From assembly GCA_025774205.1 (NCBI GenBank), contig JALGWK010000074.1, positions 1 through 12,301 of the forward strand: a DNA stretch of 12,301 nucleotides. Direction: 5' to 3'. Positions 672-8,120 of the stretch are shown one piece after another (position 1 is the stretch's first letter; each line of letters opens with the position of its first letter). Below the pieces are notes generated by a model. That model was not told where the DNA came from. It searched no databases and worked only from the letters and a program-made list of their open reading frames with translations. The translations under genes and the position numbers were made by a program. The DNA comes from a bacterium. GTDB lineage: Bacteria; Blakebacterota; Blakebacteria; Blakebacterales; Blakebacteraceae.

Positions 672-1751
672 TTATCCCTCTCCTCCGTCATACTCCCTGT
701 GACTCCAGCCCCCGGGCGCGATCGATCGTTCCCGCGAGCCTTCCCGCAGGAGCACGTCGGGCGGACCTTCATCTATCCGGCCGATCACCGACAGTGGTCC
801 CTCCCCGTCCAGGTCTTCTTCGGCCAGGGCCGGGTGATCGGGGAGGAGGGTGAGCAGGAGTTCGAACTCCTCCCCGGAATCGAGCGCGTAAAGGGCGGTC
901 TCTTCCACGCGAACCACCTCACCCCGTGCTTCGGCCCGCCACCTCAGGAATGGATCGAGCTCGGGACAGACCGGTATGGCGCCGGCGTCGATTATCACCC
1001 GGACCTTCGAGTCGAGAGCAAGGTGCCAGGCCTCGCTCGACAGGCCGTCACTGATATCAATTCCACCATGCACCCCGGCATGCCGGTTCACCGCCGCGGC
1101 TGCCTTCACCCTGGCCCGTGGACGGAGGTGCCGCTCGATGAGCGCTGCCGCCCACGCGTCGGGCGGCGGTCCACCGTCGAGAGCGAGCAGTTCCACCCCT
1201 GCCCGGCTACCGCCCAGATGTCCGGTAACAGCCAGCACATCCCCCGGGCGGGCGCCCGATCGCCTCCAGAGACGGTCGGCCGGGGCTGTGCCGAAAACGG
1301 CGATCGAGATGGCCAGCGGTCCCGGCGTATCCACCACATCGCCCCCGACCACCGCTACCCCGAGCTGAGCAGCTTCTTCTCTTATCCCGTCGTACAGCTG
1401 CTCGAGTCGCCGATCATCGATTCCCGCCGGAATCTGGAGACCGATCACCGCTACCAGCGGTGTCCCGCCCATGGCAGGGATGTCGCTCACCGCGGCGGTC
1501 AGCGCCCGGGCTCCCACGGCAGAGGGTGGTTCATGGGGGAAGGCATGCACGTTCTCCACGACGGTATCGATCGTGAGCAGACCGAGGACACCGGGAGCCG
1601 TCTCCCAGACCGCCGCGTCATCTCCGATGCCGCAGGCCAGGTCGCCTCCCGGCAGAGGAGGCTCGGGTCCAAGGTGGGCAGCCAGTTGCTCAATGAGCCG
1701 GAACTCCGGACCGAGCGGTCCGGCGCCTTTGTCCTGAGCCCTCCCTTTCAC
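672..1751 (-). CDS. thiL: Thiamine-monophosphate kinase ThiL
   Basis: ThiL uses ATP to phosphorylate thiamine monophosphate to thiamine diphosphate, the active cofactor, in the cytoplasm. The 359-residue product has the family's motifs in order: GIGDDAAVW (41-49), IDTVVENVH (61-69), VSDIPAMGGTP (88-98), VVGGDVVD (134-141), a GDVLAVTGHLGG turn, GGIDISDGLSSEA, and SGEEFELLL near the C-terminus. The acidic Mg/phosphate-binding residues are kept. The usual GGDT is GGDV here and EGVHF is ENVHAF, both mild departures. Length is slightly above the usual 320-350. An upstream ATG at 1841 would overlap the preceding gene by 94 bases and add a tail foreign to the family. The GTG at 1751 instead overlaps the preceding stop as GTGA and has GGAGGAGG eight bases upstream, so I chose it. 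It lies within a four-gene operon. No TPP riboswitch was seen nearby. Confidence 0.95.
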   Translation of the reverse strand: MKGRAQDKGAGPLGPEFRLIEQLAAHLGPEPPLPGGDLACGIGDDAAVWETAPGVLGLLTIDTVVENVHAFPHEPPSAVGARALTAAVSDIPAMGGTPLVAVIGLQIPAGIDDRRLEQLYDGIREEAAQLGVAVVGGDVVDTPGPLAISIAVFGTAPADRLWRRSGARPGDVLAVTGHLGGSRAGVELLALDGGPPPDAWAAALIERHLRPRARVKAAAAVNRHAGVHGGIDISDGLSSEAWHLALDSKVRVIIDAGAIPVCPELDPFLRWRAEARGEVVRVEETALYALDSGEEFELLLTLLPDHPALAEEDLDGEGPLSVIGRIDEGPPDVLLREGSRERSIAPGGWSHREYDGGEG

Positions 1752-3211
1752 GGTAACTGCCTCCTCCGGGAGAAATCGAACCGGGTGATTCCCCGCCGGG
1801 TGCCGAACCAGATCGTATCTCCCAGCAGGGCCGAGCACCACACCCGGGCATCTATCAGGCCGTCAGCTTCATCATAGTGATACCACTGCTCTGAATCACG
1901 GATCAGACGCCACACTCCCCGGGTTGTCGTCACCCAGACATTCGTTCCGTCGAGGACCAGTGAGGTCGCTTCACCCGGGAGGAGGGGTCCCGGTCCCGGC
2001 ACGGGCAGCCACTCGCCGCTCGCCGCGTCATACGCCGTGATCCCGCGCGATCCGGCCCACCAGACCTCATCCTTCCAGGTACCCACCGCGTCGATCCTCC
2101 CCCCGAGGGTGTCTTCGGGATGGCTCAACGTGAAGAGCGTACCGGTCGGCCAGTCACCCCGGTAGCCCAGGGCTCCGATATCGGTCGCGAACCAGGTGAC
2201 ACCGTCGCCGGCGGCAATATCGGTGATCAGCGCCTCAACGGGGAGGGCCGTCACGCTCAGGGAATCACCGGCGATCGCAACGGTACCCCGCCTGGTTCCC
2301 ACCCAGATCGCGCCGCTTCCGGACGCGATCGCCGTCACACGGTGATCGGGCAGTCCGTTCCGCTCGGTCCACGTCTTCCATCGTCCGGTGGCGTCACGGC
2401 GCGCCACTCCGATGTCGACCGCCAGCCATATCTCCCGACCGGAACGGGTCATGTCGAATACGCGATCGGAGAGGAGCCCGATCGCCTCCCCCGCCAGCTC
2501 GTACGACCAGGCATCCTGCGCGAACTGCCATTCGGTCAGGCCGCCGGTCGCCCTGAGATCTCCGGACCCGCCCGCGATCAGCCGGTCAACGGTGACGACC
2601 ATCGCCCTCACATCCCCGATCCAGAGTCCATGCGGTCTCATCCGGAGCTGTCCGATCCGCAGATCGGCCTCTCCTGCGCCGAGGCCCCAGGTCGTCAGCC
2701 ACAGCTCGGCTCCCTCCCCGACCCTGACATCGGTCACGGGAGCGGAGATCGAAAGCGGTCCGATGATCCGCCCGTCACTCAGGTACTGGTAGTCTGGATC
2801 GGTGAAGAGGTTGGCCGGCAGGGGCGCCGTCGGGACCGGAGGCAGTTCGGGAAATCTGTCACTCCGCAGGTATCCAGTCGCCGGTTCCACCCGGATCTCG
2901 CCCGATCCCGCCCGCACCGCGATCGTCCCGTCGGAGGCCATACTCACGCCCTCGATGGCACCTTCGGGGAGACCGTCCGCTGATGTCAGGGGCGCCCGCC
3001 ACCGGTCGAGCAGACGGTCGTGGAGCAGCAGTCCGCCGGTGGTGGCAACAGCCGTATATCTCGATCCGGGCACCACCAGGCTGGCATATCGGGTGACCGT
3101 AATCGATTCCCATTCGGAGGGTGAGTAGAAGGCATTCTGCCCGCCGGGATCGGGCCCTGCCCCGGCCACGATCCCGAGCCAGAGGAGAACCGCTCCCGAG
3201 AGGTACTTCAT
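1748..3211 (-). CDS. Secreted beta-propeller protein with Reg_prop-like repeats
   Basis: This 487-residue protein begins with a signal peptide (short K-containing n-region, hydrophobic 5-18, small residues GAG near 17-19), so it is exported to the periplasm or surface. The rest is a string of roughly 40-50-residue blades carrying aromatic/DG and IWxG signatures: NGLPDHRVTAIASG-AIWVGTRRG (285-309), ITDIAAGDGVTWFATDIG (329-346), EVWWAGSRGITAYD (382-395), NVWVTTTRGVWRL (424-436) and DTIWFGTRRGITRFDF (465-480). These match the two-component-regulator propeller type found in sensors and in free-standing secreted proteins. No kinase, DNA-binding or C-terminal sorting domain is present, so it is probably a binding or scaffold module with unknown ligand. 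Its ATG overlaps the upstream lipoprotein stop as TGATG (one base), and its stop overlaps the thiL GTG. Translation of the three genes is therefore likely coupled. Confidence 0.85.
   Translation of the reverse strand: MKYLSGAVLLWLGIVAGAGPDPGGQNAFYSPSEWESITVTRYASLVVPGSRYTAVATTGGLLLHDRLLDRWRAPLTSADGLPEGAIEGVSMASDGTIAVRAGSGEIRVEPATGYLRSDRFPELPPVPTAPLPANLFTDPDYQYLSDGRIIGPLSISAPVTDVRVGEGAELWLTTWGLGAGEADLRIGQLRMRPHGLWIGDVRAMVVTVDRLIAGGSGDLRATGGLTEWQFAQDAWSYELAGEAIGLLSDRVFDMTRSGREIWLAVDIGVARRDATGRWKTWTERNGLPDHRVTAIASGSGAIWVGTRRGTVAIAGDSLSVTALPVEALITDIAAGDGVTWFATDIGALGYRGDWPTGTLFTLSHPEDTLGGRIDAVGTWKDEVWWAGSRGITAYDAASGEWLPVPGPGPLLPGEATSLVLDGTNVWVTTTRGVWRLIRDSEQWYHYDEADGLIDARVWCSALLGDTIWFGTRRGITRFDFSRRRQLP
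1760..1767 (-). promoter_or_regulatory. Strong Shine-Dalgarno that sets the thiL GTG start
   Basis: Read on the minus strand, GGAGGAGG sits eight bases before the GTG at 1751, inside the last codons of the propeller gene. Together with the GTGA stop/start overlap it argues for translational coupling and for GTG rather than the longer ATG frame. Confidence 0.75.
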
Positions 3212-5067
3212 CAGAACTCCACGTTGGGCAGCAGTCTCTGAGGCAGGGGCAGCGGGACCAGGCCGATCGACTGCATCCGTTCATCCCACTCCTCACTCAG
3301 GGTCCGCATGGTGACTGAGATCGAGCTGTCGATCTTCAGGATCTCTCCCGGCAGGATATGGGCGCGTATCGTTTCCAACGCTTCCAGGTACCAGATTTTC
3401 CAGGCGTTGAGGATCTCCTGCTCGAGGAACCGGTCGCCGGCGGTCGGAACTCCCTCGTCATCCACCTGAAGGTTATCGCGGGCCAGATCGATCAGGATCT
3501 CCATCCGTTCCCGGGCCCGATTATACACCAGGGTGATCAGTTTCCGGGCAGCCGCCAGGTCGGCCAGGGCGATCTCGTAGGCGGTCACCGCCGCAACCCC
3601 CGCGCCCGCAGTCACCAATCCCCGCTCCACGTGACCGGGGGAGTCGAGGCTCGATCGATAAAGGGGATCGGGGAATGACCAGAGCCGCTGTGCCGGGATC
3701 AGCTGCTCGAGGAGTTCATCATGGTCGGCTCCCCCTTCATAGGGATGCGTGGCGAATGGCCGCCCTCTGTCACCACCGGTAATCCTCATCGCCACCTCGG
3801 CCGTCAGCAGGCTGAGGTAGTGCCCCTCGAACGGCCAGTAGGGCAGTATCGCTGCTCCCCACGGGGTGTGTTCGTCAGGCGGCCGGGTCCAGACCGAGGC
3901 AGGATCAGGCACGCCCTCGAGCAATAGCCGTGAAGGTTCGGCTTCCTGCCGGCCGGCCAGGAGGTGGACCACAGTCGCTGAATGGAGTTCATCGACCACG
4001 GTCGGGTGATGCCTGGCCCATGAATCGGTACCCATCATCGTCGCCCCCCAGACGAAGACGATCCCGCGACGGGGCGACTCGAGCTTTCCCTCCCGTATGG
4101 CCGTGTTGATGGCCAGGGCCGCCTCCACCAGGGCTGCGGCTCCGCTCACATCACCGGCTCCGGGGGCAGGGCCGGAGAAGGACGCGACCAGCGCGACCCG
4201 CTCCAGAAGCGGCTCACATCCGGGAATCTCCGCGACGAGGGTTCGCAGATACCGTCCCTCGAGGGGCTGCGTCAGCACGGTCGCCCTCACCTCGGTCCCG
4301 CCACCCCCGCGCTCCATCGCCTGCTCCAGTCTCAGGGCAGTCGCGATGCTCACCTTGAACCCGAAGCCTTCCCGACCCACAACGCTCCATGAAACGAGGT
4401 CGGGGTGACTGTCGGTGTCCTGCCAGGAGGGCGCGGAGGCGCTCACCACCCCGGCGGCTCCCCGCTCCAGGACTGCGTTCCGGTAGATGTCGGCCAGCTG
4501 CTGACGGCCATAGACGATCGCGCCCGCGACGTCCACTCCTTCATATTCCTCATCGAAGGTGCCATTCCCGAGGTTGATCATCCTGGTCGTCAGGCCCCCG
4601 GCGGGTGTCGCCCGGGAATTCCCGGCCAGGACCATGGGGGTTTCGTCATAATCCGCGGCCGTGAATCCGTCGGGACCGGTCACTTCGAGCCGGGCTGAGA
4701 TCGGGTTGATGATCTCGTATGGCAGGGAGTCCCGTAATACAAAGGCGTAACCCCCGGAGACGCCCGTCAGGGGAGGCCCGTCGGGCGGTTCGTCCACGAT
4801 CGCGAATCCTCCCGCTTCGAGCCTGTCCAGGATCAGATCGAGGGCGGTGTCGAAATCGGGGGTTCCGGGGAGACGCTGCAGTGGCGCGAGTGCCTCGATA
4901 AGTTCTCCGGAAACGGTGCCGTCGATGTAGGGCAGCAGGAAGCGGTCAGCGTTGAGGGGGGTGCCCCGGCCGCAGCCGGTCATGACCAGGAGGGAGATGG
5001 CAAGCAGGCGGAGAGTGCCGTGCCTGCCGGGCGCCGAAAGCGGATGATAGCTCGACATAGTGTGCAA
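3211..5067 (-). CDS. Lipoprotein related to M28/DUF4910-type aminopeptidases, probably catalytically dead
   Basis: The 618-residue product has an export signal ending in VMTGC (Cys32, TTG numbering), so it is predicted to be a lipoprotein. Residues about 143-238 resemble a protease-associated (PA) insert (VAGAIVYGR, LERGAAGVVS). Residues about 273-505 follow the M28-like layout PGAGDVSGAAALVEAA, RRGIVFVWG-ATMMGT, GGADHDELL and SSLDSP. As I recall the family, HLDEPKPGANDNASG and FLWVPEMYGT are expected at the first two blocks. Here the HxD positions are Ser296 and Ser298 and the catalytic Glu position is Thr343; only Asp306 and His449 of the likely metal ligands remain. The last ~110 residues are helical and unassigned. 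TTG 5067 was chosen because GGGAGGT lies six bases upstream; ATG 5058 is the alternative (spacing 15). ATG 5121 would run into the divergent promoter region. It is first in an operon with the propeller protein, thiL and the HAD gene. Confidence 0.82.
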   Translation of the reverse strand: MHTMSSYHPLSAPGRHGTLRLLAISLLVMTGCGRGTPLNADRFLLPYIDGTVSGELIEALAPLQRLPGTPDFDTALDLILDRLEAGGFAIVDEPPDGPPLTGVSGGYAFVLRDSLPYEIINPISARLEVTGPDGFTAADYDETPMVLAGNSRATPAGGLTTRMINLGNGTFDEEYEGVDVAGAIVYGRQQLADIYRNAVLERGAAGVVSASAPSWQDTDSHPDLVSWSVVGREGFGFKVSIATALRLEQAMERGGGGTEVRATVLTQPLEGRYLRTLVAEIPGCEPLLERVALVASFSGPAPGAGDVSGAAALVEAALAINTAIREGKLESPRRGIVFVWGATMMGTDSWARHHPTVVDELHSATVVHLLAGRQEAEPSRLLLEGVPDPASVWTRPPDEHTPWGAAILPYWPFEGHYLSLLTAEVAMRITGGDRGRPFATHPYEGGADHDELLEQLIPAQRLWSFPDPLYRSSLDSPGHVERGLVTAGAGVAAVTAYEIALADLAAARKLITLVYNRARERMEILIDLARDNLQVDDEGVPTAGDRFLEQEILNAWKIWYLEALETIRAHILPGEILKIDSSISVTMRTLSEEWDERMQSIGLVPLPLPQRLLPNVEF

Positions 5068-5073
5068 CTTGAG

Positions 5074-5080
5074 ACCTCCC
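5074..5080 (-). promoter_or_regulatory. Shine-Dalgarno GGGAGGT favouring a TTG start
   Basis: On the minus strand GGGAGGT is six bases before TTG 5067 and fifteen before ATG 5058. The spacing favours TTG as the real start of the M28-like lipoprotein, though the two proteins would differ by only three residues. Confidence 0.5.
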
Positions 5081-5082
5081 GC

Positions 5083-5120
5083 TGACGGTGTCAAGACGGG
5101 GCTTTCACTCTTGACCGTCA
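5083..5120. promoter_or_regulatory. Interrupted inverted repeat between divergent genes (candidate operator)
   Basis: The arms GTCAAGA (5090-5096) and TCTTGAC (5109-5115) are perfect 7-base complements separated by 12 bases. After a two-base bulge (5088-5089) the pairing resumes as TGACG (5083-5087) against CGTCA (5116-5120), giving 12 paired positions. It lies in the gap between the divergent lipoprotein operon and the M50 gene. Each arm contains a TTGAC(A/C) hexamer resembling a -35 box on its own strand, but no convincing -10 box follows at 16-18 bases on either strand. A regulator-binding site is one reading and an RNA hairpin in a leader is another; neither is proven. Confidence 0.45.
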
Positions 5121-5182
5121 CAGCCGGAGTGACCCTCTTGTCATCTGACGTGCGAAGCGGCCGATGCGCAGAGAGTGACTCG

Positions 5183-6243: not shown

Positions 6244-6259
6244 CGGCTGGTATCAGCCG
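6244..6259. terminator. Weak hairpin at convergent gene ends
   Basis: CGGCTG-GTAT-CAGCCG forms a 6-bp stem with a 4-base loop between the convergent M50 and etfA genes and overlaps the etfA stop codon. No T-run follows on either strand, so it is at best a weak or factor-assisted bidirectional terminator. Confidence 0.25.
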
Positions 6260-7233
6260 TTCAGCTTCTTCAGTTCCCCGGCCAGCGCCGGGAGGACCTC
6301 CATCACGTTCCCGACAATGCCGTAATCGGCCACCTGGAAGATCGGGGCCTCCGCGTCGCGGTTGATGGCGACGATGACCTTCGAGCGGCCCATACCGGCC
6401 AGGTGCTGCATGGCGCCGGAGATGCCGCAGGCGACGTAGAGTCCCGGTGTGACTACCTTTCCGGTCTGTCCTACCTGTTCGCTGTGCGGTCTCCAACCGG
6501 CGTCGACAGCCGCCCGGGAGGCGCCCAGCTCAGCGCCGAGAAGATCGGCGACCTCTTCGAGGAGACCCCAGTTCTCCGGTCCTCCCATGCCGCGACCGCC
6601 CGACACGATCCGATCGGCTTCGGTGAGATCGACCGCCGCGCCCTCGGCCGCTTCCACCCCGCCCGCCGTGACACCCTCCACACCCGCCAGGGCGGCAGTA
6701 TCGAGCTGCTCTATGGCCGGGGTCGCTCCCCGGGAACCATCCGCCTCGAACGCCTTCGGTCGGACACTGACGACGGAGACCGGTGTGGTCAGCCGGATCG
6801 TTTCGAAGAGCTTGCCCGCGTATACCGGCCTGGTCGCGACCACAGCTCCATCATCCAGGTCGATACCGGTGACGGATGCCGCGTAACCGGCCCCCTGCCG
6901 GGCCGCAATCCTCGGAGCCAGGTCTTTGCCGAGACTTGAGGCGGCGATCACGATGACCGCCGGATCCGCGGCCTCTGCGGCTGCGGTAACTGCCTCGAGC
7001 CACAGCTCACCCGAATAGGCCCCGAGAGCCTCCTGATCGGCCACGTAGACGGTATCGGCGCCAAAGGCTCCGAGTCCTGACGCGTGGTCGGAGATTCCAC
7101 TGCCGGCCAGCAGGACCGAGCATGGTCCGCCGATGCCGTCAGCCAGCCGTCTGCCGGCGCTCACCGCCTCGGCCGTAACGGCCCGCAGTTTTCCATCCCG
7201 GGTCTCCGCGATTACCAGTACACCATTGGGCAT
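6253..7233 (-). CDS. etfA: Electron transfer flavoprotein subunit alpha
   Basis: EtfA pairs with EtfB to carry electrons from acyl-CoA and other flavin dehydrogenases to the membrane quinone pool; the alpha subunit binds FAD. The 326-residue product has the usual length. The N-terminal domain runs from VLVIAE (5-10) to about residue 190. The C-terminal FAD domain carries VSGGRGMGG (210-218), [11 protein letters not shown] (237-247), [10 protein letters not shown] (250-259), the family signature [16 protein letters not shown] (265-280), and [10 protein letters not shown]...ADYGIVGN (290-309). ATG 7233 was chosen because AAGGAG lies eight bases upstream and the family starts here; ATG 7263 adds ten unrelated residues. 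It follows etfB by 50 bases in the usual etfB-etfA order. No ETF:quinone oxidoreductase or dehydrogenase gene is visible in the window, so its electron donor cannot be named. The gene itself is intact even though its partner is broken. Confidence 0.96.
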
Positions 7234-7283: not shown

Positions 7284-7971
7284 CTACAGAACCTTGGCTT
7301 CCTCTTTCAGGAGTCGGACCAGCTCGACGACCGCCTCCGGCCCTTCACCCACGATTTTCCCTTCCAGCCGTGCCGGCGGAAGTGAGAGCTGAACGGTCTC
7401 GAAACCGGCTTCGCCCGAATCGCTGTCGACGGTGGCGATCTCTTTCTTCTTGGCCGCCATGATCCCCTTCAGTGACGCGTACCGGGGTTCGTTGAGCCCC
7501 TTCTGGGTCGTGAGGAGAGCCGGCAGTTCCAGCTTGAGGGTCTGTCTGCCACCCTCGACCTCCCGGGATGAGGGTCGCTATCATGGGTCCCTGTGCCTGG
7601 CTGTCATCATCCACCGACTGCTTCCCGGTGAGGACCAGATCGTGAGGCTGATCGCCGAGGGCCTGCGCTACCAGTCGAGCCTGCTGCAGCGGATCGTCGA
7701 CCGGAGCGGCGGTCTTCAGGTGGAGGGCCTCGTCGCAGCCGAGCGCGAGACACGATCGGAGCGCGGTGCCGACCCGCTCGGGTCCGACCCCGATCGCGGT
7801 GACGGTACCTTCACCCGCTTCCCTGATCTGCAAGGCGGCCTCTACCGCGAACTCATCGTATGGATTCACGACCCAGGTGACATCCTGCTCGTCGATCTGA
7901 CGTCCATCGGCGCCGATCCTGACTCGTGCCGCGGTGTCGGGCACCTGCGTGATATACACAAACAGGTTCAT
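7284..7971 (-). pseudogene. etfB: Electron transfer flavoprotein subunit beta, interrupted by deletion and frameshift
   Basis: EtfB binds AMP, completes the ETF heterodimer and contacts partner dehydrogenases. From ATG 7971 (AAGGAG five bases upstream) 135 residues match the family: MNLFVYITQVPDTAARV, WVVNPYDEFAVEAAL (34-47), GKQSVDDDSQAQGPM (116-130). The frame then drifts into an unrelated tail ending at 7345. A second frame, starting at 7565, carries the family's C-terminal part for 93 codons: REVEGG, LPALLTTQ, the recognition loop LNEPRYASLKGIMAAKKKE, and an end at TAG 7284-7286. The two parts total about 228 residues against a usual ~250. Family members have about 20 residues between these blocks (the region around WPQ...TF), which are absent. 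A simple one-base indel cannot explain this; a deletion of roughly 60 bases with length 2 mod 3 would. Product as read: 208 residues, without its docking loop. An assembly collapse is equally possible. Confidence 0.88.
7551..7577. repeat. Imperfect palindrome at the etfB break point
   Basis: ACCCTC (7551-7556) pairs with GAGGGT (7570-7575), and in an alternative register CGACC (7556-7560) pairs with GGTCG (7573-7577). CCCGGG (7562-7567) lies at the centre. The inferred etfB junction (about 7565-7567) falls in that centre, so the structure may be linked to the deletion, or may have been created by the join. Confidence 0.4.
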
Positions 7972-7976
7972 GACTG

Positions 7977-7982
7977 CTCCTT
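7977..7982 (-). promoter_or_regulatory. Shine-Dalgarno of etfB; divergent gap to 8120
   Basis: AAGGAG lies five bases before the etfB ATG. The rest of the divergent gap (7983-8120) should hold promoters for both etfB and the Omp85 gene, but I found no hexamer pair on either strand good enough to call, and no strong dyad. Confidence 0.7.
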
Positions 7983-8120
7983 ACAGACCGGGGTGTTCGT
8001 TCTGCCATTCGGTTTGAGGATGGGTACGGTAGTGAGAGCCGCCGGGACCTACAAGCCGATTTTCTGTCCCCTATTCACGCGTCTGGCGCCGTAGCCGGCA
8101 AGGCCCTATCTTCTTCGGCA

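Follow-up and report, generated by a model that had tools for sequence, protein, structure and literature searches.

The question raised by this locus is whether etfB, the gene for the ETF beta subunit, is broken in the organism or only in its assembled genome. The window that we analyzed is an entire contig of 12,301 bases (C233), belonging to a draft genome of 3.09 Mb that is spread over 527 contigs and is 85.9% complete. In this window, etfB is split between two reading frames and is 62 nt short, and the initial annotation had named a recent event, an assembly collapse, and a subpopulation variant as possible causes. We put the probability that the 62-nt gap is a local assembly error, and not a biological feature, at about 0.9.

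The two parts of etfB lie on either side of a junction that can be placed to within a few nucleotides (Table 1). As the initial annotation had described, each part is recognizable in its own frame: the 5′ part was 84% identical to residues 1 to 135 of EtfB from a relative in the same genus (G001), and the 3′ part was 85% identical to residues 156 to 249 of the same protein. Matching both frames to the ETF domain profile (PF01012), a check that had been proposed, likewise found the domain in two frames instead of complete in one, with ~21 profile positions (between 111 and 133) absent at the join, and a codon-usage model put the frame switch at 7564/7565. Read onward from its start codon, the gene continues past the junction into unrelated sequence and stops at 7345-7347, for a total of 208 amino acids. 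The LNEPRYAS loop, which lies past the junction, is therefore out of frame with the N-terminal part, as had been claimed. In human ETF-beta, the loop that this motif matches is the recognition loop that binds dehydrogenases (PMC4148887). Lacking ~20 residues and with its recognition loop out of frame, the printed product would be unable to work as EtfB. A 220-amino-acid open reading frame on the plus strand (window 7432-8094) runs antisense to etfB; it spans the faulty join and is therefore probably spurious.

Table 1. Locations of the etfB parts, etfA, and broken genes elsewhere in the same genome
Feature	Location	Strand	Remarks
etfB 5′ part	window 7567..7971	minus	EtfB residues 1-135, ATG at 7971; PF01012 positions 4-111
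etfB 3′ part	window 7284..7565	minus	93 codons and a stop codon, out of frame with the 5′ part; LNEPRYAS loop inside; PF01012 positions 133-178
etfB junction, 62 nt absent	window 7564..7571	minus	best breakpoint 7568/7567, uncertain by a few nt
etfA	window 6253..7233	minus	intact; PF01012 and PF00766 complete
valS, broken	L098:3054-5611		
topA, broken	L100:2-1371		
hslU, broken	L100:2918-4313		
dinG-like gene, broken	L104:10244-12759		
pyruvate-phosphate dikinase gene, broken	L068:1-1219		
unnamed gene, broken	L072:9762-11723		

We compared the locus with those of three relatives, G001 and two members of the same family (G002 and G003). All three carry an uninterrupted etfB of 249 codons (750 nt including the stop codon) that contains the additional bases, compared with 688 nt in the window, so that the net loss is exactly 62 nt. 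This agrees with the earlier observation that no DNA is left to encode ~20 residues. The window is collinear with a single G001 contig (C184) at 72.5% nucleotide identity overall, and etfB was the only one of its main genes whose G001 counterpart matched in two frames. We found no second copy of etfB in the genome and no trace of the missing 62-nt block elsewhere in it, other contigs included; its lack on other contigs speaks against an assembly error. It had been proposed that relatives carrying the extra bases would by themselves mark the break as an artifact. The bases are indeed present, but the rule is insufficient alone because a recent deletion fits the same result equally well.

Such a deletion, 62 nt long and genuine, would have knocked out etfB, before further decay set in, either in the population that was sampled or in a sub-strain whose sequence the assembler happened to trace. 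The presence of the block in all of the relatives is in keeping with this, as is the intact state of the remainder of the window relative to G001. Differences from G001 fell mostly at the third codon position; at positions 1, 2, and 3, they numbered 15, 9, and 46 in the 5′ part of etfB and 7, 6, and 40 in the 3′ part, and the corresponding dN/dS values (NG86) were ~0.12 and ~0.08. By these measures, both halves are strongly constrained, with no decay after the break, and pseudogene decay of etfB was rejected on the strength of that constraint, which we also count in favor of an assembly error; conservation of both halves would also be expected if a deletion were very recent.

The same conservation might be taken to mean that the broken gene is still expressed, either through programmed frameshifting or in the form of two separate polypeptides, an idea that we regard as barely credible. 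The ~20 core residues at the junction have no DNA at all, so that a frameshift could not restore them. The two-polypeptide version fares no better, in that the 3′ frame offers no start codon until an ATG 58 codons before its stop, beyond the LNEPRYAS loop, and the relatives encode EtfB in one uninterrupted frame.

A recent deletion also has to be reconciled with the rest of the ETF system. The ETF locus is single in this genome and etfA and two acyl-CoA dehydrogenases are intact, so loss of etfB would be costly. The etfA gene lies directly downstream of etfB, in the same order as in G001, and the pair appears to form one putative transcription unit. The etfA product was 79% identical over 325 amino acids to the 326-amino-acid G001 protein, with a start codon (ATG at 7233) that matches the G001 start, and an AAGGAG sequence precedes the start codons of both etfA and etfB; the earlier description of etfA and these sites as intact thus stood. 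A short third acyl-CoA dehydrogenase match, on C210, was set aside as a contig end and not a break. ETF-quinone oxidoreductase (PF21162), sought as a sign of the pathway, was not found in the 85.9%-complete genome, a result that is uninformative because the genome is incomplete. Elsewhere in the window, a gene on the minus strand (3211-5121) encodes a 636-amino-acid protein that has no Pfam match and is 72.5% identical to a G001 protein over 651 amino acids.

The sequence around the breakpoint bears on how the 62 nt could have been lost. The initial annotation had suggested slippage at a CCGGG microhomology. Read from G001, G002, and G003, and thus indirectly, not from the parental sequence, the ends of the 62-nt block share 0 to 1 nt of homology, and there is no CCGGG microhomology at the breakpoint in any of the three. 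The longest direct repeats nearby are 6 to 8 nt long and in a different register, with none longer than 8 nt in these relatives, so that the short direct repeat at both ends of the deletion that slippage calls for was not seen in any of them. These findings argue against slippage and against the collapse of a direct repeat in a k-mer graph, and we set both aside as unsupported. The lack of microhomology at the ends counts against a recent deletion in the organism as well. Among assembly errors, strict repeat collapse is left unsupported, and a faulty contig join fits better. Of the causes named at the outset, assembly stood, although not in the form of a strict repeat collapse.

The main evidence for an assembly error came from the rest of the genome. 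We scanned 345 kb of sampled contigs from it (313 kb without N) and 489 kb of G001 (475 kb without N) for mid-gene frame switches, using a codon-usage model trained on the genome that contains the window and counting overruns of the upstream frame of at least 40 nt. The scan is noisy (a spurious short switch appeared near window 688-736), and a few of the switches found (e.g., on L066, L074, and L092) may mark places where genes naturally meet or end, but it gave 17 switches in 313 kb here versus 3 in 475 kb of G001. A search for complete exact tandem duplications with a unit of at least 14 nt, which is independent of any relative, gave 12 versus 2 over the same lengths. When G001 proteins were placed on the DNA of this genome, 3 of 36 orthologs were broken in frame; with the comparison turned the other way, none of 39 was. 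Short runs of N occur inside contigs (28 at L077:3397-3424 and 4 at L087:847-850), which shows that the contigs of this genome are scaffolds with estimated gaps.

Family profiles confirmed that genes for valine-tRNA ligase (valS), HslU, topoisomerase I (topA), pyruvate-phosphate dikinase, a CstA-like transporter, an RND permease, a DinG-like helicase, and an enoyl-CoA hydratase-like protein are split. DNA alignment traced the breaks to deletions of 106 nt in valS (profile positions 1 to 85 and then 123 to 862), about 32 nt in hslU (1 to 343 and then 356 to 441), and 16 nt in the dinG-like gene and to a 47-nt exact tandem duplication in topA. The unnamed gene on L072 carries a 21-nt duplication plus an additional small shift, and the break in the dikinase gene coincides with a 22-nt duplication that is 1 of the 12 exact tandem duplications. 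In addition, one part of topA lies at the end of L100 (G000:C360) and the other part at the end of a second contig (G000:C225:4760-5278). In whole-genome searches, valS, topA, and hslU were present here only in broken form and were whole in G001. Both valS and topA are normally indispensable.

Lesions of the same class as that in etfB are thus in excess in this assembly, as a local assembly error would entail, and because many other conserved genes, some of them essential, carry the same kind of break, the etfB break is almost certainly an assembly error. The frequency of like lesions, those in valS and topA among them, gives an artifact a high prior, and we therefore consider it unlikely that a recent 62-nt deletion inactivated etfB. 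That a natural population of this uncultivated bacterium lost EtfB function in this way while keeping etfA and the acyl-CoA dehydrogenases is similarly improbable. The number of broken genes might instead point to genuine decay across the whole genome of the organism. We hold this to be very improbable, given that essential single-copy genes are among those broken, that constraint is strong on either side of the etfB break, and that the complete exact tandem duplications are better explained as unmerged overlaps.

Short deletions and exact duplications throughout a genome, with near-essential genes among those hit, are the mark of faulty contig joins. If neighboring contigs or scaffolds were joined here and the intervening sequence was dropped, the printed etfB would have lost its 62 bases and its frame in the process, and the living organism would almost certainly retain an intact EtfB of 249 amino acids. 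The same process would have produced the other short deletions (16 to 106 nt) and, where overlaps went unmerged, the exact tandem duplications seen across the genome. The etfB gene itself would then hold no biological surprise. The draft genome has ~1 gene per 20 kb broken by short deletions or duplications, and gene losses, pseudogenes, and split genes reported from it should be treated with caution and not taken at face value.

Compared with known EtfB proteins, the window copy is ~20 residues short and shifted in frame, but both of its halves align with the intact 249-amino-acid protein of the same genus and family. The lesion itself resembles the local assembly errors described for MAGs by Chen et al. 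(2020; PMC7111523), which lack read support and include duplicated sequence at scaffold joins. That study detected errors by read support, whereas ours relied on sequence comparison, and the etfB lesion differs in being a deletion without Ns. The likeness lies in short, gene-breaking errors inside otherwise good scaffolds and in duplications at joins, prominent in some assemblers according to that study, which noted that such errors spread wrong gene sequences in public databases.
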